A stretch of DNA of 64,000 nucleotides, from positions 2,790,001 through 2,854,000 of the forward strand of contig NZ_CP034161.1 of NCBI RefSeq assembly GCF_003860525.1, written 5' to 3'. Source of the stretch: Epilithonimonas vandammei (GTDB lineage Bacteria; Bacteroidota; Bacteroidia; Flavobacteriales; Weeksellaceae). Every line of letters begins with the position of its first letter. Positions within the stretch are counted from its first letter, which is position 1. Position numbers and translations under genes: made by a program. Below are positions 37,471 to 58,442 of this stretch, in pieces. The notes beneath the pieces are model-generated. The model saw only the letters and a list, made by a program, of their open reading frames with translations. It ran no database searches and had not been told where the DNA came from.

Positions 37471-37510
37471 TTTTATCAAAGAACAAACGTTGATGCACCA
37501 ACAAAATCCA

Positions 37511-37618
37511 TAGCCACGATAGTAGTGGAAATCCTTTTTTGCGTTAGCTTCACAATCTTCTTATTAACAAATCGTGATGCAAAAAAGATTGCAACGGATA
37601 GCGGGATTAAGCTCCTAA
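37511..37618. repeat. Dispersed repeat family C, copy 2
   Basis: The left end is TAGCCACGATAGTAGTGGAA, leading to ATCCTTTTTTGCG. The right end contains GCAAAAAAGATTGCAACGG and AGCGGGATTAAGCTCCTAA. Lies between dusB and the M1 peptidase. Confidence 0.65.
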
Positions 37619-40927: not shown

Positions 40928-40985
40928 TTTTTTATAAATGATAATTGATGATTGATAAATGATATTAATTCTACGAATTGCAAAC

Positions 40986-41106
40986 TAGCCCCGATTGCAA
41001 CGGCATCCTTTTTTGTTATTGCGATTGCTGAATGGTTCTACAGATTGCTTCACTTCGTTCGCAATGACAAAAAAGATATAGTGGAAAGCGGGATTAAGCT
41101 TCTTAA
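40986..41106. repeat. Dispersed repeat family C, copy 3
   Basis: TAGCCCCGATTGCAACGGC and ATCCTTTTTTG at the left, and GAAAGCGGGATTAAGCTTC at the right. The interior has ATTGCGATTGCTG and CTTCGTTCGCAATGAC, themselves an imperfect inverted repeat. Confidence 0.7.
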
Positions 41107-43339: not shown

Positions 43340-44608
43340 TTAAACTAGCATACTCAACACATCCGGATTATCATTAAGATAAGATTCAAAATAACCGAGA
43401 TTTTGCATTCTCTGTTTTAAACCATTAAAATCAGAAATATTGGAAAGTTCGATTCCGACGATTGCCAAAGCGGTTTCTCGTGAATTTTTCTTGGTGTATT
43501 CGAAATGGGTGATGTCGTCATTTTCTCCTAAGACATTCAGAACAAAATCTTTCAGAGAACCAGGACGTTGTGGAAATTTGACCATAAAATAATGTTTCAA
43601 ACCATTGTAAAGCAAAGCCCTTTCTTTGATTTCTTCCATTCTTGTAATATCGTTGTTGCTACCACTAACGATGCAAACCACATTTTTCCCTTTAATCTGA
43701 TTTCTATATTGTTCTAAAGCCGAAATAGATAAAGCCCCAGCTGGTTCCAAAACAATTGCATCTTTATTATACAATTGAAGAATCGTATCACAAATCTTCC
43801 CTTCATCCACAGGAATACAGTCTGCAAGCGCATTTTTGCAAATCTCAAACGTTAAATCTCCTACTCTTTTAACTGCTGCACCGTCAACAAAACCGTCAAC
43901 TTCAAGCAATTCTGTATTAATATTATTATCTATGGAAGTCCTCATAGAAGGCGCTCCTTTTGACTCAACTCCAATTAATTGAGTCTCTTTCGACAATTCT
44001 TTAAAAACTGTTGCAATGCCCGAAGCCAAACCGCCACCGCCAATTGGAATGAAAACAAAATCAATATTTTCTTGCTGCTGTTCTAAAATTTCCAAAGCTA
44101 AAGTTGCCTGACCTTCAATAATCTGAACATCATCAAAAGGATGAATAAAAGCTGCTCCAGAAGTTTTTGCAAATTCCAAAGCTGCATTTTTTGAAGCATC
44201 AAAAGTATCTCCAATCAATTTGATTTCGGCAAAGTTTCCACCAAACATTTCTACTTGTTCCAGCTTTTGTTTTGGAGTTGTCACAGGCATAAAAATCGTT
44301 CCTTTGATTTGGAGTTGTTTACAGGAAAAAGCTACACCTTGCGCGTGATTTCCTGCACTGGCACAAACAATTCCTTGCGAAACTTTTTCTTCATTGAACA
44401 GACTTTTGATTTTATTGTAAGCGCCTCGTAATTTGTAAGACCTTACAGGTTGTAAATCCTCTCTTTTGAGGAAAATATTGGCACCAAATTTTTCTGACAA
44501 TCGGGAATTGTATTGCAAAGGCGTATAATTCACGACTTTTTCTATACTTTTTCGAGCTTCTTTAACCGCTTCCAAGGTTGGAAATATAAGCGTTTCGTTC
44601 ATCTTCAT
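43340..44608 (-). CDS. ilvA: Threonine ammonia-lyase (biosynthetic threonine deaminase)
   Basis: Makes 2-oxobutyrate from threonine for isoleucine synthesis. 422 residues, PLP fold type II. The PLP lysine is in VRSYKLRGAYNKIKS; the Ser/Asn-rich CASAGNHAQGVAFSC and phosphate-binding glycine loop FIPIGGGGLASGIATVF are intact. The C-terminal ~85 residues form a single ACT-like regulatory domain (VKFPQRPGSLKDFVLNVLG), the short variant, suggesting feedback by isoleucine. Last gene of the ilv block, separated from the ABC ATPase by a 191-bp palindromic element. M3 (44602) is an alternative start. Confidence 0.96.
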   Translation of the reverse strand: MKMNETLIFPTLEAVKEARKSIEKVVNYTPLQYNSRLSEKFGANIFLKREDLQPVRSYKLRGAYNKIKSLFNEEKVSQGIVCASAGNHAQGVAFSCKQLQIKGTIFMPVTTPKQKLEQVEMFGGNFAEIKLIGDTFDASKNAALEFAKTSGAAFIHPFDDVQIIEGQATLALEILEQQQENIDFVFIPIGGGGLASGIATVFKELSKETQLIGVESKGAPSMRTSIDNNINTELLEVDGFVDGAAVKRVGDLTFEICKNALADCIPVDEGKICDTILQLYNKDAIVLEPAGALSISALEQYRNQIKGKNVVCIVSGSNNDITRMEEIKERALLYNGLKHYFMVKFPQRPGSLKDFVLNVLGENDDITHFEYTKKNSRETALAIVGIELSNISDFNGLKQRMQNLGYFESYLNDNPDVLSMLV

Positions 44609-44627: not shown

Positions 44628-44802
44628 AACCACAAAAGTCACAAAAGATATTATTTTCTTAAAGTTTAAATAGTTGAAAATAAGAAGCTCACAAAATGTT
44701 CATCATTTTCGACATTCTTTTTGTGAACTTTAAACACATCTTTTTAAAGCTTAAAAAAACTTTTGTGCCTTTTGACTTCGTCGAATCTACGATTTGTGGT
44801 CA
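44628..44802. repeat. Long imperfect palindrome between the ABC ATPase and ilvA
   Basis: The left arm ACCACAAAAGTCACAAAAG is partly complementary to the right end (CTTTTGTGCCTTTTGACT ... GATTTGTGGT), and an inner pair CTCACAAA / TTTGTGAA nests inside. It looks like a foldback, non-coding element of the same style as family A but not clearly the same sequence. Confidence 0.5.
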
Positions 44803-46251
44803 AATCATTTCTTTAATTCTTGTTGTTCCGTTTTCCAGAACGAGTTTGCGGCTGAGTTTTTTTGGTAATTGAGATTCAAAATGTCCAACATAAATCAACG
44901 ATTGTCCCTGACTTGCCAAATCATCAATTACCTGATTGAAATATTGCGTCTGCTCATTGTCCATCCCTTGACAAGGTTCATCCAGAATCAAAAGTTTTGG
45001 TTTTTTAATCAATGTTCTTGCGAGTAAAGCCAAACGTTGTTTTCCTAAAGGAAGTGTACTCAGCTTTTTGTTTTTATCTTCTTTCAAATCGAAGAAATAG
45101 AGAATTTGCTCCAACTGCTTTTGCTGGTCGAAACTCAGTTTCTGATACAAACTCATCGAGTCAAAAAAACCGGAAGCGATGGTTTGTCCAACGTTCGCAT
45201 TCATATCAAAATACCAATGTAACTCGGGAGAAATCATTCCGATTTTTTCTTTGATATCCCAAATACTTTCGCCACTTCCCCGCTTTTGTCCGAAAAGATG
45301 AATCTCATTGGCATAAGCTTGTGGATGGTCGCCATTTAACAAACTTAACAAGGTTGATTTTCCCGAACCATTATGACCCTGCAAAAGCCACTGTTCTCCG
45401 GAATTGACTTCCCAATCGATGTTCTTTAGGACTTGTTTTTCGCCGTAAGAAATATTGATATTTTCTAGTTTGATGAGACTTTCCTTTTCGTTTTTCTGAT
45501 TATTCTGAAGAAAAAAAGGAAGCGATTTTGGTATTCTTTCTTCACCCTTAGAAAAATCTTTTGGAGAGTTTCTATGAACTAATTTTCCGTTTTTTATTTC
45601 AACAAAATATTGAACACTTTCTGGATATTCGTCATCATTATTAATTAAAATCAAAGTGACATTTTCTTGAATCAAATCATCAAAAGTCTGATTCAAAAAC
45701 TGTCTCGATTTTACATCCAACCCTGTGTAAGGCTGGTCGATAATCAGAACTTGAGGTTTTAGCCAAAGTGCTTTCAGCAATTGTAATTTCTTGTGTTCGC
45801 CACTCGACAATTCTATTAATTGTTGATTTTTGAAATTCTCAAATCCAAAAGGTTCTAAATAGGATTCTAAAATCCTGAAATCAAGATTTTCCTCTTTCCC
45901 AAAATGATTGAGTTCCGCAAAAACAGTGAGTGTATCATTTTTGGCAAATTGATTATATCGTTGTTGATAATAAAAATTGCGGTCGCCTTCCAGATTACTG
46001 AACTGAAACCAATTGGAAACATACAAAACTTTCTTTGACAATTCTGAGTTTTCATCAAAATTGACCTCAACTTTTCCTTCAAAACTTTTGATTTCGCCGG
46101 AAATGATTTTGGCTAAAGTTGTCTTTCCACTTCCGCTTAATCCGCCTAGCATCCAACATTCTCCGGAAGATATTTCGCAGTTTAAATCTTCCAATATGGG
46201 TTTATTATATTGGAAATTGAGGTTTGAAATTTGGATGATTGGGGTTGACAT
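44800..46251 (-). CDS. Tandem ABC ATPase (ModF-like)
   Basis: 483 residues from the ATG at 46251; an upstream frame start at 46290 lies in poorly coding DNA. Two nucleotide-binding domains, no membrane segment. NBD1: Walker A GLSGSGKTTLAKI, signature ELSSGEHKKLQ, Walker B VLIIDQPYTGLD, where the catalytic Glu is replaced by Gln. NBD2: Walker A GHNGSGKSTLLSL, an unusual signature TLPLGKQRLAL, Walker B LLILDEPCQGMD. This resembles ModF/PhrA-type soluble tandem cassettes, whose role is poorly defined. Sited between ilvC and ilvA, but nothing links it to amino acid synthesis. Confidence 0.88.
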   Translation of the reverse strand: MSTPIIQISNLNFQYNKPILEDLNCEISSGECWMLGGLSGSGKTTLAKIISGEIKSFEGKVEVNFDENSELSKKVLYVSNWFQFSNLEGDRNFYYQQRYNQFAKNDTLTVFAELNHFGKEENLDFRILESYLEPFGFENFKNQQLIELSSGEHKKLQLLKALWLKPQVLIIDQPYTGLDVKSRQFLNQTFDDLIQENVTLILINNDDEYPESVQYFVEIKNGKLVHRNSPKDFSKGEERIPKSLPFFLQNNQKNEKESLIKLENINISYGEKQVLKNIDWEVNSGEQWLLQGHNGSGKSTLLSLLNGDHPQAYANEIHLFGQKRGSGESIWDIKEKIGMISPELHWYFDMNANVGQTIASGFFDSMSLYQKLSFDQQKQLEQILYFFDLKEDKNKKLSTLPLGKQRLALLARTLIKKPKLLILDEPCQGMDNEQTQYFNQVIDDLASQGQSLIYVGHFESQLPKKLSRKLVLENGTTRIKEMI

Positions 46252-46273
46252 TTTTATTTTTTGAATCAATTTT

Positions 46274-46360
46274 GAACGCAAAGGGCGCAAAGGTTTTTTT
46301 TAACTAACTGTTTTAAGTTCACAAAGGCGCTTCGCTTAGAAAAGAACTCAAAGTTTTTTT
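46274..46360. repeat. Dispersed repeat family A, copy 2
   Basis: Begins AACGCAAAGGGCGCAAAGG and a T run, then TTTTAAGTTCACAAAGGCGC, ending near AACTCAAAG with a T run. It is the closest to a consensus for family A. Confidence 0.65.
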
Positions 46361-46590: not shown

Positions 46591-48072
46591 TTAAACTGTT
46601 TTGATAGACTTCATCGCAGTCATTGCCTGACGAAGTTTTTTTCCTACAACTTCTACCGGATGATTTCTCAAAACATCGTTGACGTGAACCAATTGAGCGT
46701 TATCAACTGAAGCTTTTTTGCCTTCGTTAAAATCTTTTCCTACCAAATCTGTATCCACCGACTTCATAAAATCTGCCAACAAAGGTTTGCAAGCTTGATC
46801 AAAAAGATAACAACCATATTCTGCAGTGTCAGAAATTACACGATTCATCTCAAACAATTTTTTTCTTGCGATAGTGTTGGCAATCAAAGGCGTTTCGTGA
46901 AGAGATTCGTAGTAAGCAGATTCTGGTTTAATGCCTGCTTCAACCATTGTTTCGAAAGCCAGTTCAACGCCCGCTCTGATGAACGCGGACATCAAAAGAT
47001 AATTGTCAAAATATTCCTGTTCATCGATTTTCACATCGCCTGCAGGTGTTTTTTCGAAAGCGGTTTCACCTGTTTCTGCTCTCCATTTCAATAAGTTTGC
47101 GTCGCCATTTGCCCAATCTTCCATCATTGTTTTGGAAAATTCTCCCGAGATAATATCATCCTGATGTTTTTGGAAAAGTGGTCGCATAATGTCTTTCAAT
47201 TCTTCTGACAATTCGAAAGCTTTGAGTTTTGCAGGATTGGAAAGTCTATCCAACATTCCGCTCACACCGCCGTGTTTCAAAGCTTCTGTGATGACCTCAA
47301 CGCCGTATTGCACCAACTTGGAAGCATAACCTGCATCAATACCTTTCTCCACCATTTTATCGAATGAAAGAATAGAACCCGTTTGTAAAAGTCCGCACAA
47401 AATAGTTTGCTCACCCATCAAATCGGACTTCACTTCGGCAACAAAAGAGGATTTCAAAACGCCCGCTTTGTGACCGCCAGTTCCCACGCAATATGCTTTT
47501 GCTTCTGCCCAGCCTTTTCCTTGAGGATCATTTTCGGGGTGAACGGCAATCAAAGTTGGAACACCAAAACCACGTAGATATTCGGCTCTAACTTCGGAAC
47601 CCGGACATTTTGGAGCCACCATAATCACCGTCAAATCTTTACGAATCTGCATTCCTTCTTCCACGATATTGAAACCGTGAGAATAAGATAAAGTCGCACC
47701 TTGTTTCATTAATGGCTGAACCGCGTTGATAACGGAAGTATGTTGTTTGTCGGGCGTCAAATTGATAACCAAATCCGCAGTTGGAATGAGTTCTTCGTAA
47801 GTTCCGACTTTGAAATTATTTTCGGTTGCATTTTTCCACGAATCTCTCTTTTGATCGATCGCTTCCTGACGTAATGCGTAGGAAACATCCAATCCGCTGT
47901 CTCTAAGATTCAGACCTTGATTCAGACCTTGAGCACCACATCCTACAACCACGATTTTCTTTCCCTTCAATGCAGAAACGCCATCAGAAAACTCTGAACT
48001 ATCCATAAATTCCGCCTGTCCTAACTGATGCAACTGGTCTCTGAGTGATAAGGTATTGAAATAATTTGCCAT
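46591..48072 (-). CDS. ilvC: Ketol-acid reductoisomerase (class II)
   Basis: NADPH- and Mg2+-dependent step common to valine and isoleucine synthesis. 493 residues, matching the long class II form with a duplicated knotted C-terminal domain, as in E. coli. The N-terminal Rossmann fold has [20 protein letters not shown], and cofactor specificity residues follow in [16 protein letters not shown]. Metal ligands lie in [16 protein letters not shown]. Full length. 140 bp after ilvN, with a family A repeat in the gap. Confidence 0.97.
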
Positions 48073-48124: not shown

Positions 48125-48213
48125 TGAACACAAAGCGCACTAAGATTTTTTTTAAAAACTGAATGTTTTTAAGTTCACAGAGGCGCTTACGCTCAAAATT
48201 TTGATAGTTTTTT
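48125..48213. repeat. Dispersed repeat family A, copy 3 (ilvN-ilvC gap)
   Basis: Starts GAACACAAAGCGCACTAAG with a T run, then TTTTTAAGTTCACAGAGGCG. It ends at the ilvN stop codon. Confidence 0.55.
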
Positions 48214-48803
48214 TACATTGTGAAAACGTCGTCTCTTTTGTCTAAGTATTCGTTTTCCACAATCTCGTGAGAAGGTTCTCTTTTTTCGAACTCAAGGACT
48301 TTTTCGTGGATTCCTGCGCTGCTTTTAATGATTGCGATTCTTGCTCCACGAACAAACTCGATGAGTCCGTACTTGTTGAGTTCTTCTGTCAGTCGGTCGA
48401 TTTCTTCACGATGTCCTGCTGTTTCGAAAACAATATAATCTTCCCGAATCACAACCGTAGAAGCGCCATATTGACGGAGTAAACGTTCTACGTAAACTTT
48501 TTCTGTTACTACTTTTGTCGGCACTTTGTAAAGTGCCTGTTCCTGCCATACAATCTCATCATCGGTATTGAAATAAGCTTTCAGAATATCGATTTGTTTT
48601 TCTAATTGACGACAAAGTTTTCTAACAACTTCCTCAGTTTCATTAATAAGAATCGTGAACCTATGAATGCCTTCGACTTCGGATGGAGACGTATTTAAAC
48701 TCTCGATATTGATTTTTCTTCGTGAAAAAATCCCTGATATTCTGCCGATTAAACCAACCGAATTTTCTGTGTATAATGTGATGGTAAATTCTTGTTTTTC
48801 CAT
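48213..48803 (-). CDS. ilvN: Acetolactate synthase small (regulatory) subunit
   Basis: Regulatory partner of IlvB, conferring valine feedback. 196 residues. The N-terminal ACT domain is EFTITLYTENSVGLIGRISG with FSRRKINIESLNTSPSEVEG, the usual valine-binding surface. The C-terminal ALS_ss_C-like domain includes ASTVVIREDYIVFETAGHRE. It ends with an acidic tail (YLDKRDDVFTM). It is longer than the minimal ~90-residue form and similar to the IlvH length class. 187 bp downstream of ilvB. Confidence 0.94.
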   Translation of the reverse strand: MEKQEFTITLYTENSVGLIGRISGIFSRRKINIESLNTSPSEVEGIHRFTILINETEEVVRKLCRQLEKQIDILKAYFNTDDEIVWQEQALYKVPTKVVTEKVYVERLLRQYGASTVVIREDYIVFETAGHREEIDRLTEELNKYGLIEFVRGARIAIIKSSAGIHEKVLEFEKREPSHEIVENEYLDKRDDVFTM

Positions 48804-48990: not shown

Positions 48991-50730
48991 TTATTTAAGT
49001 CTGATTTCTGAAACCGAAGTTCCTTGTGCTACCATTGGAAAAACGTTATTTTCTTTCCCAACCATTACTTCCAAAAGATAAGCGCCATCGTGATTAATCA
49101 TTGTTTCCAAAGCTGTTTTAAGGTCTTTTCTTTCTGATATTTTTTGTCCGTCGATGTAATAACCTTTTGCAACAGCTACGAAATCTGGACTTGTGATGTT
49201 CACAAAAGAGTAACGTCTGTCGTGGAAAAGTTGTTGCCATTGTCTTACCATTCCAAGAAATTCATTATTGAGAATCAGAATTTTAACCTTCGCTCCGAAC
49301 TGCATAATCGTCCCCAATTCCTGCAATGTCATTTGGAATCCACCATCACCAATAATTGCAACAACTGTTTTTTCTGGTGCGCCATACCAAGCGCCGATTG
49401 CAGCTGGCAAACCAAATCCCATTGTTCCCAAACCTCCTGATGTTACGCTGGATTTAGAGTTGTTGAATTGAGCATATCGACAAGCAACCATTTGATGCTG
49501 ACCGACATCGGTTGTGATGATTGCATCGCCATTTGTCAATTCATTTAGAACTTTGATAACCTCTCCCATTGTCATTACATCAGTTGTTGGATTAAGTTCG
49601 TTTTGGATAACTTCTTTAATCTCTTCTTTTTCCAATTCACGGAATTTTTCCAACCAAGCTGAATGGTCATTCTCTTTGAGAAGCGCCGTCAACATTGGTA
49701 AAGTCTTCTTACAATTTCCCCAAACAGGAACAGTTGTTTTTACATTTTTATCAATTTCGGCAGGGTCAATATCAAGATGAATTATTTTTGCTTGTTTAGC
49801 ATATTTGTCCAAACGACCTGTAACCCTATCATCGAAACGCATTCCGACTGCAATGAGAACATCGCATTCGTTGGTCATTACATTGGGTGCGTAATTTCCG
49901 TGCATTCCTAACATTCCGACGTGCAATTTGTGATTGGTTGGAAGTGCGCTTAGTCCCATTACTGTAGCTCCAGCAGGAAGATTGACTTTCTCAATAAAAG
50001 CTTTGAATTCTTCTTCTGCTTTTCCTAAAATCACACCTTGTCCAAAAAGAACAAATGGTTTTTTTGCTTGATTAATGAGTTCTGCGGCCTTTTCGATATA
50101 TTCATTTCTGATTTCCGGTTCGGGACGGTAACTTCTGATATGATTGCATTTTTTATAACCTAAATATTCGAATAATTGTAATTGAGCATTTTTTGTAATA
50201 TCAATCAAAACAGGACCAGGACGACCTGTACTTGCAATATGAAAAGCTTTGGCAATAGCTTCGGGAATTTCTGTTGCATCGGTAACCTGATAATTCCATT
50301 TTGTAACCGGTGTTGTAATATTGATAACATCGGTTTCCTGAAAAGCATCGGTTCCCAAAAGCGAGGCAAAAACCTGACCTGTAATACAAACAATCGGGTT
50401 GCTATCTATCATCGCATCTGCCAAACCTGTCACCAAATTGGTTGCACCGGGACCACTGGTTGCAAATACCACTCCAGTCTTTCCTGACGTTCTCGCAAAT
50501 CCCTGTGCTGCGTGAATTGCACCTTGCTCGTGGCGAACCAAAATATGTTTCAGTTTTTCGGAATAGTCGTACAAAGCATCATAAATCGGCATAATTGCTC
50601 CACCGGGATAACCGAAAATCGTTTCCACATTTTCCTGTAACAGAGCTTCTAAAACAGCTTTTGAACCTGAGATTTCTACCGGTTTGGGTTGTTCTAATTC
50701 TGTATTTTCCTTTACTTCAAGCGTACTCAT
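48991..50730 (-). CDS. ilvB: Acetolactate synthase large (catalytic) subunit
   Basis: Thiamine-diphosphate enzyme condensing pyruvate with pyruvate or 2-oxobutyrate. 579 residues. The N-terminal domain has the catalytic Glu in ETIFGYPGGAIMPIYDAL (the Glu of HEQGAIHAAQGFARTSG interacts with ThDP). The central FAD domain contains GMLGMHGNYAPN and the C-terminal ThDP motif GDGGFQMTLQELGTIMQFG to NNEFLGMVRQWQ. Full length. 24 bp after ilvD. Confidence 0.97.
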   Translation of the reverse strand: MSTLEVKENTELEQPKPVEISGSKAVLEALLQENVETIFGYPGGAIMPIYDALYDYSEKLKHILVRHEQGAIHAAQGFARTSGKTGVVFATSGPGATNLVTGLADAMIDSNPIVCITGQVFASLLGTDAFQETDVINITTPVTKWNYQVTDATEIPEAIAKAFHIASTGRPGPVLIDITKNAQLQLFEYLGYKKCNHIRSYRPEPEIRNEYIEKAAELINQAKKPFVLFGQGVILGKAEEEFKAFIEKVNLPAGATVMGLSALPTNHKLHVGMLGMHGNYAPNVMTNECDVLIAVGMRFDDRVTGRLDKYAKQAKIIHLDIDPAEIDKNVKTTVPVWGNCKKTLPMLTALLKENDHSAWLEKFRELEKEEIKEVIQNELNPTTDVMTMGEVIKVLNELTNGDAIITTDVGQHQMVACRYAQFNNSKSSVTSGGLGTMGFGLPAAIGAWYGAPEKTVVAIIGDGGFQMTLQELGTIMQFGAKVKILILNNEFLGMVRQWQQLFHDRRYSFVNITSPDFVAVAKGYYIDGQKISERKDLKTALETMINHDGAYLLEVMVGKENNVFPMVAQGTSVSEIRLK

Positions 50731-50754: not shown

Positions 50755-52440
50755 TTATAAATCGGTTACACAACCTTGTGAAGCATCCGCTACAGATTTA
50801 GCGTATTTGTACAACACACCTCTTTTCACTTTGTATTCGGGTTGTTGGAACTCGGCTTTTCTTTTGGTAATCTCTTCTTCTGACAATAATGCGTTGATGG
50901 TATTTTTTTCAGCATCCAATTCAATCACATCGCCGTCTTTAATTAAGCCAATCAATCCTCCGGAAAAAGCTTCCGGCGTGATATGCCCAACGACGAAACC
51001 GTGTGTTCCTCCTGAGAATCTTCCGTCTGTAATCAAGGCAACATTTTTACCTAAGCCTGAACCCATCAAAGCGGAAGTTGGCTTTAACATTTCCGGCATT
51101 CCGGGTGCGCCTTTTGGACCTTCGTTTTTAATGACAACCACATTTCCTTCCTGAATTTTTTTATCTTCGATACCTTTGATGAATTCTTTTTCGCCATCAA
51201 AAACGATTGCTGTTCCTTTAAAATAAGCACCTTCTTTTCCTGTAATTTTCGCCACAGAACCTTTCTCAGCAAGGTTTCCATACATAATTCTGATGTGACC
51301 GGTTTCTTTGATTGGATTTTTGATATCGTGAATGATATTTTGCTGTCTGTCGATAATTGAAGTGACGTGTTCCAAGTTTTCTGCAATGGTTTTACCTGTA
51401 ACCGTTAAACAATCGCCGTGAAGCAAGCCTAAATCCAATAGATATTTCATCACCGCCGGAACTCCGCCTACTTTGTGAAGGTCTTCCATTAGATATTTTC
51501 CACTTGGTTTAAGATCGGCTAGAAACGGAGTTTCATCACTTATTTTTTGAAAATCATCCAAAGTCAAATCATAACCAATTGACTTTGCAATGGCGATAAA
51601 ATGAAGAACCGCATTGGTACTTCCGCCCAAAATCATAATCAGCCTTAATGCATTTTCGAAAGCTTTTGGCGTCATAATATCAGATGGTTTAATGTCTTTT
51701 TCTAAAAGAATTTTAATGTAATGCCCGGCAAACTGACATTCTTCTTTTTTCTCTTTACTAAGTGCCGGATAAGAAGAAGAATAAGGCAAACTCATTCCCA
51801 GAGCTTCAATTGCAGAAGCCATTGTATTGGCAGTGTACATTCCACCACACGCACCTGCACTTGGACAAGAATTTTGAATCACACCTTGAAAATCTTCCTC
51901 AGAAATTTTACCTGCAATTTTGTTTCCTAACGCTTCGAAAGCTGAAACGATATTCAAATCTTCACCTTTGTAATGTCCTGGTGCAATACTTCCTCCGTAA
52001 ACCATTATCGAAGGACGGTCAAGACGCGCCATCGCCATCAGAGAACCCGGCATATTTTTGTCACAACCCGGAACTGTAATCAATCCGTCATAATATTGTC
52101 CGGCACAAACGGCTTCGATAGAATCTGCAATAATGTCTCGACTGACAAGGGAATAACGCATTCCGTCGGTTCCGTTAGTCATTCCGTCGCTGATTCCGAT
52201 GGTATGGAACATTAATCCAACTAAGTTTTGTTCTTTAACGCCTTTCTTTACAATCTCGGCAAGACCATTCAGGTGCATATTACAAGTATTTCCGTCGTAG
52301 CCCATACTTGCGATTCCAATTTGTGCTTTGTCGAAATCTTCTTTTTGGAAACCAATTCCGTAAAACATCGCCTGAGTTGCAGGTTGAGTTGGATCTTTCG
52401 TGAGTGTTTTGGAATATTTATTAAGTTCTACGCTACACAT
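50755..52440 (-). CDS. ilvD: Dihydroxy-acid dehydratase
   Basis: Fe-S dehydratase, penultimate step of valine/isoleucine synthesis. 561 residues. Cluster-ligand cysteines are expected in [32 protein letters not shown] and [19 protein letters not shown]. The C-terminal [23 protein letters not shown] is characteristic. Overlaps ilvE by 8 bp at its 5' end (ATG at 52440 lies within the ilvE end), so it is translationally coupled. Confidence 0.97.
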
Positions 52441-53335
52441 ATTGCAAGTTTGATTTTAAATAAGAATAATCTTCTTCTAATACTAAATGGCGATAAGCTG
52501 TCTGAATTTTTGATGATAAACTTTCTTCCCAATTCAGTTTGAAGGGAATATTATCCAAAGAATCCAATGCTACAATCTCCGCTGCTGTTCCACAGAAAAA
52601 TCCGGCATCTGCGCCCTGCATTTCTTCCGGTTTGAAGAGTTTTTCTTCGTAAGGAATTCCAAGATTATCGCAGATTTCAAAAACTGTCGCTCTGGTAATT
52701 CCGGGAAGTATGCTCCCTTTTGCCGGAGTGAACAGTTTTCCCCCTTTTTCAAAAAAGATATTGGCTCCTGAACTTTCTGCTACATTTCCTTCCGCATCCA
52801 GAACCAAAGCTTCATCAAAACCTTTATCTTTCGCTTCCTGACAAGCCAAAATCGAGTTTACATAATGACCGCTTACTTTTGCTTCTACTTTGAAAGCTTT
52901 TGGATTTGGACGTTCAAATGACGACGTCATAATTCTCATTTTGTTTGCCATATAACCGTTATCCCAATTCCAAACTTCTATAACGAGATAGCTTTTTTGT
53001 CCTTTTGACAAAGCCATATTTGGAGAACAAATGACCAATGGACGAATGTATGCGTTACTTAGATTATTTTGTTCCAAAAGTTTGTAGGTAATTTCAATCA
53101 TTTCTTCGGTAGAATAATCAAAAGGCATCATCATTGTTTCGGCAGATTTACGAAGTCTGTCGTAATGTTCCTCTGCTTTGAAAATCTTAGTTCCATTGGC
53201 TGTTTTGTAAGATTTAATTCCCTCGAAAACGGCATATCCGTAGTGCAACGATTGACCGTACAAGTCGGTTTTGGCTTCTTTTGCTTTCATATATTCCCCA
53301 TCAAAGAAGAGAACACTGTCGACATTATAATACAT
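52433..53335 (-). CDS. ilvE: Branched-chain amino acid aminotransferase
   Basis: PLP fold type IV transaminase, last step of Ile/Val/Leu synthesis. 300 residues. [15 protein letters not shown] near the N-terminus and the PLP lysine region [21 protein letters not shown] are typical of IlvE, as is [15 protein letters not shown] and the C-terminal [13 protein letters not shown]. First structural gene of the ilv operon, preceded by a leader peptide and terminator. The placement of ilvE first is less common than ilvB- or ilvD-first operons. Confidence 0.95.
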
Positions 53336-53380: not shown

Positions 53381-53411
53381 AAAAAAACCATTCTCTTGAT
53401 GAGAATGGTTT
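53381..53411 (-). terminator. Attenuator terminator between leader peptide and ilvE
   Basis: A perfect 11-bp stem AAACCATTCTC / GAGAATGGTTT with a 5-nt loop is followed on the minus strand by seven T residues in total. It lies 46 bp upstream of ilvE, after the leader peptide stop. Confidence 0.88.
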
Positions 53412-53449
53412 GTATTATTTCAATTTCAAAAATTATCACAAGCCATCAC

Positions 53450-53506
53450 TCACCACCGGAATCCGATAATGACAGAAATGACAATAATAATTATTGAGTT
53501 ATCCAT
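53450..53506 (-). CDS. ilv operon leader peptide, Ile/Val-rich
   Basis: Minus-strand ATG at 53506 opens an 18-codon frame, MDNSIIIIVISVIIGFRW, ending TGA at 53450. It has seven Ile and two Val codons, mostly in one run (IIIIVI ... VII). It lies directly in front of a terminator hairpin and ilvE, the classic layout of a ribosome-mediated attenuator: stalling at Ile or Val codons when these amino acids are scarce should favour readthrough. It is too short for most gene finders. The antiterminator fold was not computed, so attenuation is inference; the peptide, terminator and order are directly visible. Confidence 0.85.
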   Translation of the reverse strand: MDNSIIIIVISVIIGFRW

Positions 53507-53525
53507 TTTCTTGTTTTGAACGGTA

Positions 53526-53533
53526 CAAATGTA
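53526..53533 (-). promoter_or_regulatory. -7 box of the ilv operon
   Basis: The minus strand reads TACATTTG, 19 nt before the leader-peptide ATG. TTG trinucleotides exist further up but at a short spacing. Confidence 0.5.
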
Positions 53534-53808: not shown

Positions 53809-53853
53809 CCGTAGGTTTCACCTACGGCTATTAATATTGAATCCTTCGGATTC
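53809..53853. repeat. Paired small hairpins related to repeat family B
   Basis: CCGTAGGTTTCACCTACGG is a perfect hairpin, followed by GAATCCTTCGGATTC. The start CATTCCGTAGG matches the family B left end. Confidence 0.45.
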
Positions 53854-53925: not shown

Positions 53926-55245
53926 TTAATCCATTGATTTCTTATCCTTAATAATAAAAACACTGAATGCGCCTAAAACAAGCAATGCTCCAGCGATTCC
54001 CAACATTGCAATAGAACTTTCCATCGCGATAGTTTTAAATATAACACCGCCTAAAACTGCTGCAACAATCTGAGGCAAACAAATCGTTCCATTGAATAAT
54101 CCTAGATAAGCTCCCATATTATTCCCCTTCAAAGCGTTGGTCAATAATGTAAATGGTAAAGCTAAAATAGCTGCCCAAGCACATCCAATCAATAAATAAG
54201 GAACGAAAAGCAGATATTGGTCGTGAATAAACATTGTTGAGATAAAACCAACTGCACCTAAAATTAAACTAACAAAATAAGCCATTTTATAAGACTTAAA
54301 CTGAGGAATCACCAAAGCCCAAATCACAGAACCAATGGCCTGAACTGCAAACACAACCCCAACCCAGTTGCCTGCTTCCTGATATGCTGCGGATTTGACA
54401 TCTGTTGTATTCCAAACTGTTTCGGCAATCCCTGCATTGGTATAAGTCCACATATACATAAACGCCGCCCAGCTGAAAAACTGAACTAAACCTACCGACC
54501 AAAATGCTGATGGCGCTTTTGCCAATAACTGGAAAACATTGGTTGTTTTTTTGGTTTCAGGAGCGTCTTCTATTCCGTGGAATTCGGCATATTCTTTCGG
54601 AGGCATTTCTTTGACTTTGAAAATCGTGTACAAAACACAACCAATCAAAATCGCGGCTCCTACATAGAAAGAGTAAATCACAGAATCCGGCACTACACCC
54701 GAATCTGCAACGTTTGAAATCCCAATCCAAGTAAAAATAATCGGGAAAAGATAACCGACTAAACTTCCTGCATTACAAAGGAAACTTTGGATAGAGTAAG
54801 CTTTTCCTTTCTGCTTCTCGTTCACCATATCTCCCACCATCATTTTGAAAGGTTGCATTGCCATATTGATGGAAGTGTCCAAAAGCATCAATGCAATCAA
54901 TCCGAAAATCATCGCGGCAGAAACTGCTAGTTTGAAGCTTCCTGCATTGGGAAGTAAACACATTACAATCACCGAAATGATAGAACCAATCAACAAATAA
55001 GGAACTCTACGCCCCAATTTCGTCCAAGTTTTATCACTCATTACGCCAACAATCGGCTGGACAACCATTCCCATCAAAGGCGGTAAAATCCAGAAGTAAC
55101 TGAGGTTATGCGGATCCGCACCCAAAGTTGCAAAAATCCTACTGATATTGGCACTTTGCAAAGAATAAGCAATCTGAACTCCGAAAAATCCAAAACTGAT
55201 ATTCCATAGTTGAGAGAAAGGTAAATCTCTTTTATTTAAATTCAT
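53926..55245 (-). CDS. MFS sugar transporter (maltose/maltodextrin-type)
   Basis: 439 residues with about 12 hydrophobic helices (for example LIALMLLDTSINMAMQPF, ILIGCVLYTIF, AAVLGGVIFKTIA). LPFSQLWNISFGFFGVQIAYSL and PLMGMVVQPIVGVMSDKTWTKLGRRVPYL match the SLC45-like glycoside/maltose importers of Bacteroidota. It is the last gene of the starch locus and would bring maltose or short maltodextrins across the inner membrane. The substrate is inferred from the neighbours. Start at ATG 55245, 4 bp after the preceding gene. Confidence 0.88.
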   Translation of the reverse strand: MNLNKRDLPFSQLWNISFGFFGVQIAYSLQSANISRIFATLGADPHNLSYFWILPPLMGMVVQPIVGVMSDKTWTKLGRRVPYLLIGSIISVIVMCLLPNAGSFKLAVSAAMIFGLIALMLLDTSINMAMQPFKMMVGDMVNEKQKGKAYSIQSFLCNAGSLVGYLFPIIFTWIGISNVADSGVVPDSVIYSFYVGAAILIGCVLYTIFKVKEMPPKEYAEFHGIEDAPETKKTTNVFQLLAKAPSAFWSVGLVQFFSWAAFMYMWTYTNAGIAETVWNTTDVKSAAYQEAGNWVGVVFAVQAIGSVIWALVIPQFKSYKMAYFVSLILGAVGFISTMFIHDQYLLFVPYLLIGCAWAAILALPFTLLTNALKGNNMGAYLGLFNGTICLPQIVAAVLGGVIFKTIAMESSIAMLGIAGALLVLGAFSVFIIKDKKSMD

Positions 55246-57683: not shown

Positions 57684-58292
57684 TTAGAGTAAGAGGTCAC
57701 TTCCTTTCTTATGAAATTCTATAAAATCTGATGTACCATCAAAAAAACTCATTATAAAACTTCTTTCTAATGATGAAGATTTTTTAATATCTAAATAGCT
57801 TAAATATGAACAATACTTCCACTCCTCCAATTGATTTACAAAACCGTGATTTACCGGGTTATTATGTATATAATTGAGTACGTTAAGCAAATATTTCTCG
57901 TCCTCAATTTTTGTTCTTTTGATATAGTCCATAAACAAAGCCCCTTTCCTTGTATATACTTTATTATAGGCTTTCGCATAGGAATTTAACAGGTTACTGA
58001 AGGGCTTCATTAGAAACTGATGAGATTTCTTGTCATCAAACTCTGTAATACTAATATTCAAATTTTCAAAAATAATTTCCTTTTTCTTAAATGCTATCAA
58101 CAAATGAAAATGGTTGGGCATCAGACAATACGCAAAAATATCAGCAATCGGGCAAATATAGAATTTGATTTTATCTAGAAAGAATGTGTAATTTTTACTT
58201 TCCCGAAAAATCAATTCTTTACCGCTAACGTGCGAATAAATATGATAAATACTTTCAAAGTCAAAATCTTCTAGTCTTTTGTCTCCAAACAT
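57684..58292 (-). CDS. REP-associated tyrosine transposase (RAYT, Y1_Tnp)
   Basis: 202 residues. The HUH-type single-strand nuclease signature is CLMPNHFHLLIAF (the HxH pair), with the catalytic Tyr most likely in LNSYAKAYNKVYTRKGALF. YIHNNPVNHGFVNQLEEWKY is the typical RAYT C-terminal motif, and IYSHVSGKELIF is the N-terminal strand. RAYTs are IS200/IS605 relatives that act on palindromic REP sequences and usually do not move themselves. Two near-identical 33-bp palindromes flank it. It interrupts the sus operon between GH97 and GH13, same strand. Confidence 0.92.
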   Translation of the reverse strand: MFGDKRLEDFDFESIYHIYSHVSGKELIFRESKNYTFFLDKIKFYICPIADIFAYCLMPNHFHLLIAFKKKEIIFENLNISITEFDDKKSHQFLMKPFSNLLNSYAKAYNKVYTRKGALFMDYIKRTKIEDEKYLLNVLNYIHNNPVNHGFVNQLEEWKYCSYLSYLDIKKSSSLERSFIMSFFDGTSDFIEFHKKGSDLLL

Positions 58293-58345: not shown

Positions 58346-58355
58346 CTTTAATCAG

Positions 58356-58442
58356 TAGCCCCGATTGTAATGGAAATCCTTTTTTGCGAGAGGCTATGCC
58401 GAGCAAAAAAGATTGCAGTGGAAAGCGGGATTAAGCTCCTAA
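58356..58442. repeat. Dispersed repeat family C, copy 5 (shortest)
   Basis: TAGCCCCGATTGTAATGG and AAATCCTTTTTTGCG at the left, GAGCAAAAAAGATTGCAG and TGGAAAGCGGGATTAAGC at the right. The halves can fold on each other. It sits 10 bp beyond the RAYT palindrome and ends at the GH97 stop region. Confidence 0.7.

Follow-up and report, generated by a model that had tools for sequence, protein, structure and literature searches.

Organization of the ilv operon and its leader

The window, that is, the whole stretch of 64,000 nucleotides analysed here, carries on its minus strand the genes ilvE (branched-chain aminotransferase, 52433..53335 with the ATG at 53335; TIGR01122), ilvD (dihydroxy-acid dehydratase, 50755..52440, overlapping ilvE by 8 nt; TIGR00110), ilvB (acetolactate synthase large subunit, 48991..50730; TIGR00118), ilvN (acetolactate synthase small subunit, 48213..48803; TIGR00119), and ilvC (ketol-acid reductoisomerase, 46591..48072; NF003557 and TIGR00465), all matching these NCBIfam models over the cut-off. 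Farther on, an ABC ATPase gene (44800-46290, placed by gene order) lies between ilvC and ilvA (threonine ammonia-lyase, 43340..44608, minus strand; TIGR02079 over the cut-off). A transporter-like ORF on the same strand upstream of ilvE ends at 53926, and a terminator-like hairpin follows it at approximately 53890-53861 (by eye), indicating that ilvE is likely the first gene of the operon. Between this ORF and the ilv promoter, a perfect palindrome, CCGTAGGTTTCACCTACGG, is present at 53809-53827. Its assignment to a repeat family was rejected, as it occurs in a single copy in the genome.

The initial annotation had described an Ile/Val-rich peptide of 18 residues, preceded by a -7 box and followed by a terminator (11 bp, seven T residues), immediately before ilvE, and the sequence confirmed each of these elements. 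All of them lie on the minus strand; the strand, the antiterminator, and the anti-antiterminator hairpin described below are additions to that annotation. The -7 promoter box, TACATTTG, occupies 53526..53533. The leader ORF (53450..53506) runs from the ATG at 53506 to the TGA at 53450 and encodes the strongly hydrophobic peptide MDNSIIIIVISVIIGFRW, whose 18 codons include seven for Ile, two for Val, and zero for Leu, and the operon behind it, ilvE-ilvD-ilvB-ilvN-ilvC, makes the matching amino acids, Ile and Val, according to the NCBIfam identities. In Flavobacterium psychrophilum, the published offset of the transcription start site places the box at -12 to -5 (PMC9723704). The corresponding +1 is predicted at 53521, giving a 15-nt 5' UTR ahead of the leader ATG. 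No Shine-Dalgarno sequence is evident before the leader ORF of the window, and inspection by eye found no clear -33 element upstream of the leader. The intrinsic terminator (53381..53411, minus strand) consists of an 11-bp stem (AAACCATTCTC / GAGAATGGTTT) with the loop ATCAA, followed by seven T residues, the last at 53381. A transcript terminated here would measure approximately 141 nt.

Mutually exclusive helices in the leader RNA

Folding of the leader RNA (53525-53375) gave a minimum free energy of -43.3 kcal/mol compared to a mean of -26.3 kcal/mol for shuffled sequences (z -4.5), and none of 200 shuffles was as stable. The minimum free energy structure is composed of two hairpins. One of them is the terminator, formed by regions 3 and 4. 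The other is an anti-antiterminator (1:2) that overlaps the control codons: its 5' arm, region 1 (53463..53492, minus strand), lies inside the Ile/Val codons of the ORF, and its 3' arm, region 2 (53431..53459, minus strand), spans the leader stop codon. The initial annotation had proposed a search for an alternative antiterminator pairing, and such a pairing exists. The strand GAGTGATGGCTTGT (53451-53438) forms 12 pairs with ACAAACCATTCTC (53413-53401), the latter being at the same time the 5' arm of the terminator (region 3). The architecture of ribosome-mediated attenuation claimed in that annotation is thus supported by the presence of all three helices, 1:2, 2:3, and 3:4.

The helices were scored after 29 leaders had been aligned with MAFFT; five loci (L030 and L032-L035) were excluded from this alignment as too distant. 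Standard pairs filled 99.3% of the alignment cells for 3:4 (inner 10 bp), 94.5% for 2:3, and 90.3% for 1:2; in the last helix, the inner 10 bp were paired in 99.0% of the cells and the outer 15 bp in 84.4%, the outer part being weaker in the distant rows. Control helices slid by 1-3 columns reached at most 66% (3:4), 44-54% (2:3), and at most 73% (1:2). Compensatory changes were few, with double changes at two pairs of 3:4, one pair of 2:3, and three pairs of 1:2. The covariation score of 1:2 was not above that of shuffled alignments (229 of 500 reached it, and all 500 reached its count of further pair types), and the number of double-changed pairs in 2:3 was likewise reached by 223 of 500 shuffles. 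The near identity of the close leaders leaves little room for strict covariation. The 2:3 duplex was more stable than the mean of its shuffles in 135 of 153 leader units of the family, a set that includes some wrong-frame ORFs, and its z was below -1.5 in 82 of them; the value for the window was -1.55. Divergent leaders have the same topology with another sequence, as the MYQLL group illustrates around its stop codon (GTGAGAAGG against CCCTCTCAC).

Proposed mechanism and folding with a ribosome in place

These features suggest that the element is very probably a ribosome-mediated transcription attenuator that senses charged tRNA-Ile (and tRNA-Val) for ilvEDBNC. From the anatomy and the conservation of the leader we infer that the ORF is translated, that ribosomes stall on it, that termination occurs in vivo, and that transcription is coupled with translation; most likely, translation of the leader peptide decides whether the genes for Ile/Val synthesis are transcribed. 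Transcription would start at approximately 53521, and a ribosome would initiate on the leader ORF although no Shine-Dalgarno sequence is evident there. When Ile and Val are ample, the ribosome would reach the stop codon and cover region 2, so that regions 3 and 4 could pair with each other; the terminator would then form, and no operon mRNA would be made. When charged tRNA-Ile or tRNA-Val is scarce, the ribosome would stall in the Ile/Val codons and cover region 1, region 2 would be freed to form the antiterminator with region 3, and the polymerase would continue into ilvE. A start of transcription downstream of the ORF, which the initial annotation had named as an observation that would speak against attenuation, is unlikely judging from the promoter box, since all 29 aligned leaders share the sequence TAnATTTG without change, and in the window it lies 27 nt ahead of the ATG. 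The box is absent within 260 nt in four (L030, L032-L034) of the five distant loci excluded from the alignment.

The switch was further examined by masked folding, in which each codon in turn is placed in the A site of a ribosome and the leader is hidden as far as the ribosome front (13 nt). This is an equilibrium model that ignores the order of synthesis. The terminator probability in the window was 0.81 for the ribosome-free RNA and also 0.81 once the A site held the stop codon, and it fell to 0.38 at V9 and to 0.01-0.11 at codons 10-14. The effective A-site codons predicted by folding are thus codons 9-14 (V9, I10, S11, V12, I13, and I14). At I5-I8, four of the nine Ile/Val codons, the terminator of the window was not lowered at equilibrium (0.79). 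Fronts of 11 and 15 nt gave the same picture with a shift of about one codon. In the family, a drop of more than 0.3 at some I/L/V codon was observed in 54 of 139 distinct units, as against one of 235 shuffled controls built from every third unit. Under a stricter sorting of the tandem units described below, the drop was found in 34 of 49 single units, 14 of 44 second units of tandems, and 6 of 46 first units. The effect was weak for GC-rich terminators, and the switch was not reproduced for most of such terminators in tandem units; the order of synthesis must therefore be invoked there. In transcripts ending before region 4, region 3 is already paired upstream with a probability of 0.69 even when ribosome-free. 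The pairing of region 3 in such transcripts was therefore of little use as a readout, and the model makes no clear prediction for untranslated RNA.

Conservation among relatives and alternative explanations

An alternative explanation is that the terminator is real but independent of the peptide, being either constitutive or controlled by a factor (a protein antiterminator, a riboswitch, or a T-box-like RNA), and that the ORF is a by-product of AT-rich DNA. The fact that the terminator is the best conserved helix is in line with this explanation. So are the result of a codon-level test on 24 close leaders, in which I/L/V was retained in 10 of 16 changes (expected fraction 0.48, p 0.18, not significant), and the frequent occurrence by chance of short I/L/V-rich ORFs without a terminator in AT-rich DNA, a loose criterion passed by 186 of 303 shuffled regions and not used for our counts. 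However, no Rfam family reached its gathering score at 53381-53533, where only sub-threshold matches appeared under permissive settings, and a T-box or other Rfam cis-regulatory family was accordingly rejected for the leader. A detector requiring an ORF with at least six I/L/V in 10 residues and then a terminator found the pair adjoining ilvE in 97 of 101 upstream regions of the family (that of the window included), as against 1 of 1010 dinucleotide shuffles and 0 of 101 reverse complements. Together with the cognate leaders described in the next section, these results make a peptide-independent terminator improbable.

The family set was derived from the 104 of 246 genomes in which IlvE was found; three regions (G253, G221, and G048) were dropped for partial or broken IlvE matches, although one of these, G253, does carry a leader (L231). 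In three more of the 101 regions (G222, G233, and G186; L228-L230), the leader is farther out, its ATG standing 607-699 nt ahead of ilvE, and the classification of these regions as lacking a leader was rejected on this finding. The spacer from the attenuator to ilvE is approximately 480-570 nt in these three. G065 is the sole case without a leader among the 101 regions. Within the window, the detector applied to 51 gene upstream regions gave three hits at the threshold of 6 and two at 7, and the ilv leader alone was found at 8 and 9. The conservation of the peptide in relatives anticipated by the initial annotation is also borne out by a set of named loci (titled Epilithonimonas, Chryseobacterium, Cloacibacterium, Flavobacterium, Ferruginibacter, and others), which has species in common with the family set and is not independent of it. 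Among 34 such loci, L031 lies at a contig edge and L036 offers 156 nt of upstream sequence, in which no ORF was detected; with these two dropped, the remaining 32 all possess an I/V/L-rich leader ORF and a terminator upstream of ilvE.

Ribosome-mediated attenuation is also to be weighed against the possibility that the product of the ORF is a small hydrophobic peptide serving a separate function, such as a type I toxin-like or membrane peptide, located before ilvE by accident. The strong hydrophobicity of the peptide would fit such a role. On the other hand, only the I/V/L content is kept between clades (MDNSIIIIVISVIIGFRW, MYQLLSVIIIVIIIPLRL, and MYNSIIISSIIISGVISHSGEE), and the C-terminus is frame-shifted in several species (for example, GLPVMSNGS in L020 and L024) with the RNA retained. 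In addition, a covariance model of the element (R1) gave 37 matches at E <1e-9 in the 246 genomes, of which 36 lie before ilvE and the other before ilvD (G083, L221). A peptide with an independent function is even less probable than a peptide-independent terminator. Least probable of all is that the terminated leader acts in trans as a small RNA; a structured transcript of approximately 141 nt with a terminator would indeed arise, but the strong model matches are found solely in cis with branched-chain genes.

The co-occurrence of element and operon also speaks for the attenuator. In the same genus, an operonic IlvE is present in 16 of 23 genomes (that of the window included), each of which also gave a match to the element with an E of at most 3e-22; the remaining seven have neither an operonic IlvE nor the element (best E 0.0014). 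At E 0.01, the R1 model matched 97 of the 246 genomes, the weak matches being mixed. Among seven weaker loci inspected, five are leaders, located before thrA (L226), leuA (L222 and L224), and ilvD (L223 and L225), and two (L227 and L232) showed no leader. A class-wide search gave 60 ilvD places, of which G281 was left out; outside the family, a branched-chain leader with a terminator was found at 24 of 57 ilvD loci, compared to 0 of 285 shuffles; three of the 24 (G442, G348, and G412, with MIIFL... peptides) are doubtful because they resemble ordinary small membrane proteins.

Cognate leaders elsewhere in the genome

Other amino acid operons of the same genome bear leaders of their own. The hisG gene (PF01634) is preceded by MSIQLMHHHHHFHVQAGR, which contains six His residues, with a detected terminator and with a box that precedes the ATG by 27 nt (L218). 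A trpE-like gene (the best PF00425 match, taken as trpE) is preceded by MKLMNTKNWWWLSNSLSGLKGLSVF, which contains WWW, also with a detected terminator (L215). A thrA gene, assigned to an 815-codon homoserine dehydrogenase frame, has the leader MNFTTTTTISTTTTIRSCRKACL with nine Thr residues, followed by a GC stem and a T run identified by eye (L234, G000:C1:1618200-1619200). In a same-genus genome (G010), MNFTTTTTISTTTTISSCRKVCL precedes the same kind of gene as thrA; this is the thrA locus among the weaker R1 matches, and the two leuA-like loci among them carry I/L leaders in other genera. In the genome of the window, no leader was found before the leuA-like gene L213, nor before L214, L216, L217, and L220. 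The leader codons match the amino acid of their own operon wherever a leader was found, which neither a general hydrophobic peptide nor chance explains; the Thr-, His-, and Trp-rich ORFs likewise argue against a terminator that works without its peptide.

Putative tandem attenuators in relatives

The genome of the window has the single-unit form of the attenuator. In 62 of the 101 family regions, two units of leader and terminator lie in series before ilvE (e.g., L118 and L154) when at least six I/L/V are required, and the number falls to 47 of 101 when the ORF composition is set more strictly, the count varying with the ORF threshold; the units occupy approximately -320 to -40 of ilvE in regions L113-L183 and other family loci. 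When the sequence ahead of the proximal leader was shuffled, a unit arose in 1 of 970 cases. In the commonest pair, the first leader is of the MNFTNQKNIIVISIIAVVI... type and the second is MYQLLSVIIIVIIIPLRL, and a second group has another pair, MYNSIIISSIII... and MNLYNNTIIISIII... Two units were also found at two class-level loci outside the family (G502 and G527). One genome, G083, combines tandem attenuators before ilvE with a further single-unit leader located elsewhere, ahead of an ilvD-like gene (L221).

No TAnnTTTG box was found between the tandem units in any of the 62 regions. The box begins exactly 12 nt before the ATG of the first leader in 47 of the 62 tandems. This spacing, together with the published offset, places +1 on the A of the AUG and predicts a leaderless start. 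Of the other 15 tandems, 10 have a box-ATG spacing of 18-31 nt, and no box was found in five. Among the single-unit regions, 33 of 35 have a spacing of 24-29 nt. The architecture is observed, and its function we infer: it seems reasonably likely that the ilv operon of the family is often gated by serial attenuators under one promoter. In 47 of the 62 cases, a leaderless mRNA would serve for synthesis of the first peptide, and translation of the second would have to begin internally once the polymerase has passed the first terminator; the arrangement would constitute a two-step starvation gate. Such serial, partly leaderless leaders would, if true, be an unusual control circuit for an amino acid operon, and they are more surprising than the attenuator of the window.

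Relation to known systems

Ribosome-mediated attenuation is a textbook principle, and the leader of the Escherichia coli ilvGMEDA operon (IlvL) is a classical leader-peptide attenuator. The element in the window resembles IlvL in having a leader ORF rich in the amino acids made by the operon and a four-strand arrangement of anti-antiterminator, antiterminator, and terminator. It differs from IlvL in the Bacteroidota-type -7 box, the lack of an evident Shine-Dalgarno sequence, the predicted 15-nt 5' UTR, and the gene order ilvEDBNC, and we do not claim sequence homology. It is well supported that the ilv leader is a classical attenuator of an already known kind, here in a bacterial group for which few such cases are documented.

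Ribosome-mediated attenuation requires a ribosome close behind RNA polymerase. The presence of four cognate leaders (Ile/Val, Thr, His, and Trp) in one genome would imply tight transcription-translation coupling in the group. Coupling in bacteria reported as not relying on Shine-Dalgarno signals thereby becomes testable by a simple reporter. The leaders also supply small genes and cis-regulatory RNAs that predict the amino acid sensed by each operon. As for earlier comparative work, a study by Vitreschak and others in 2004 is said to have included some Bacteroidetes/Chlorobi, and the Bacteroid-trp RNA lies upstream of trp genes. Both this RNA (RF01692), described as a Bacteroidetes RNA (PMC2864571), and the ilv leader belong to Bacteroidetes; the ilv leader differs in having no Rfam match at the gathering score.

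The statement of the initial annotation that such attenuators are rarely annotated in Bacteroidota is fair, but the kind is not unknown there, as "strong clues" for leader-peptide attenuation upstream of amino acid biosynthesis operons were reported in 2021 for F. psychrophilum (PMC9723704). The structured 5' UTRs of that species are similar to the present case in that they belong to a flavobacterium, concern amino acid biosynthesis operons, and are proposed to work by leader-peptide attenuation (PMC9723704); the main text of the study names no ilv leader, the string "ilv" occurring 0 times. The group was also reported as not relying on Shine-Dalgarno signals (PMC9723704), and 5' UTRs of B. 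thetaiotaomicron were described as containing ORFs reminiscent of leader peptides (PMC7366714). An attenuator peptide of Staphylococcus aureus also controls genes for branched-chain amino acid synthesis (PMC5794164), but it is leucine-rich and belongs to another phylum, whereas the leader of the window has no Leu. Among the matches listed from the open-access literature, we recognised no description of this ilv leader by title and the start of the abstract, and at the level of titles the only match for tandem leader-peptide attenuators was Salmonella mgtCBR. The long leader of mgtCBR contains two short ORFs, as do the tandem ilv leaders of the relatives (PMC3641672). It differs in serving an Mg2+ transport/virulence operon and not amino acid biosynthesis, and the leader of the window is single-unit.

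Rfam matches above the gathering score were limited in the window to three Flavo-1 RNAs, at 58353-58436, 37508-37612, and 40983-41099. An ORF at 57684-58292 (minus strand) adjoins one of them and, judging by a motif, may resemble a REP-associated or IS200-like transposase.
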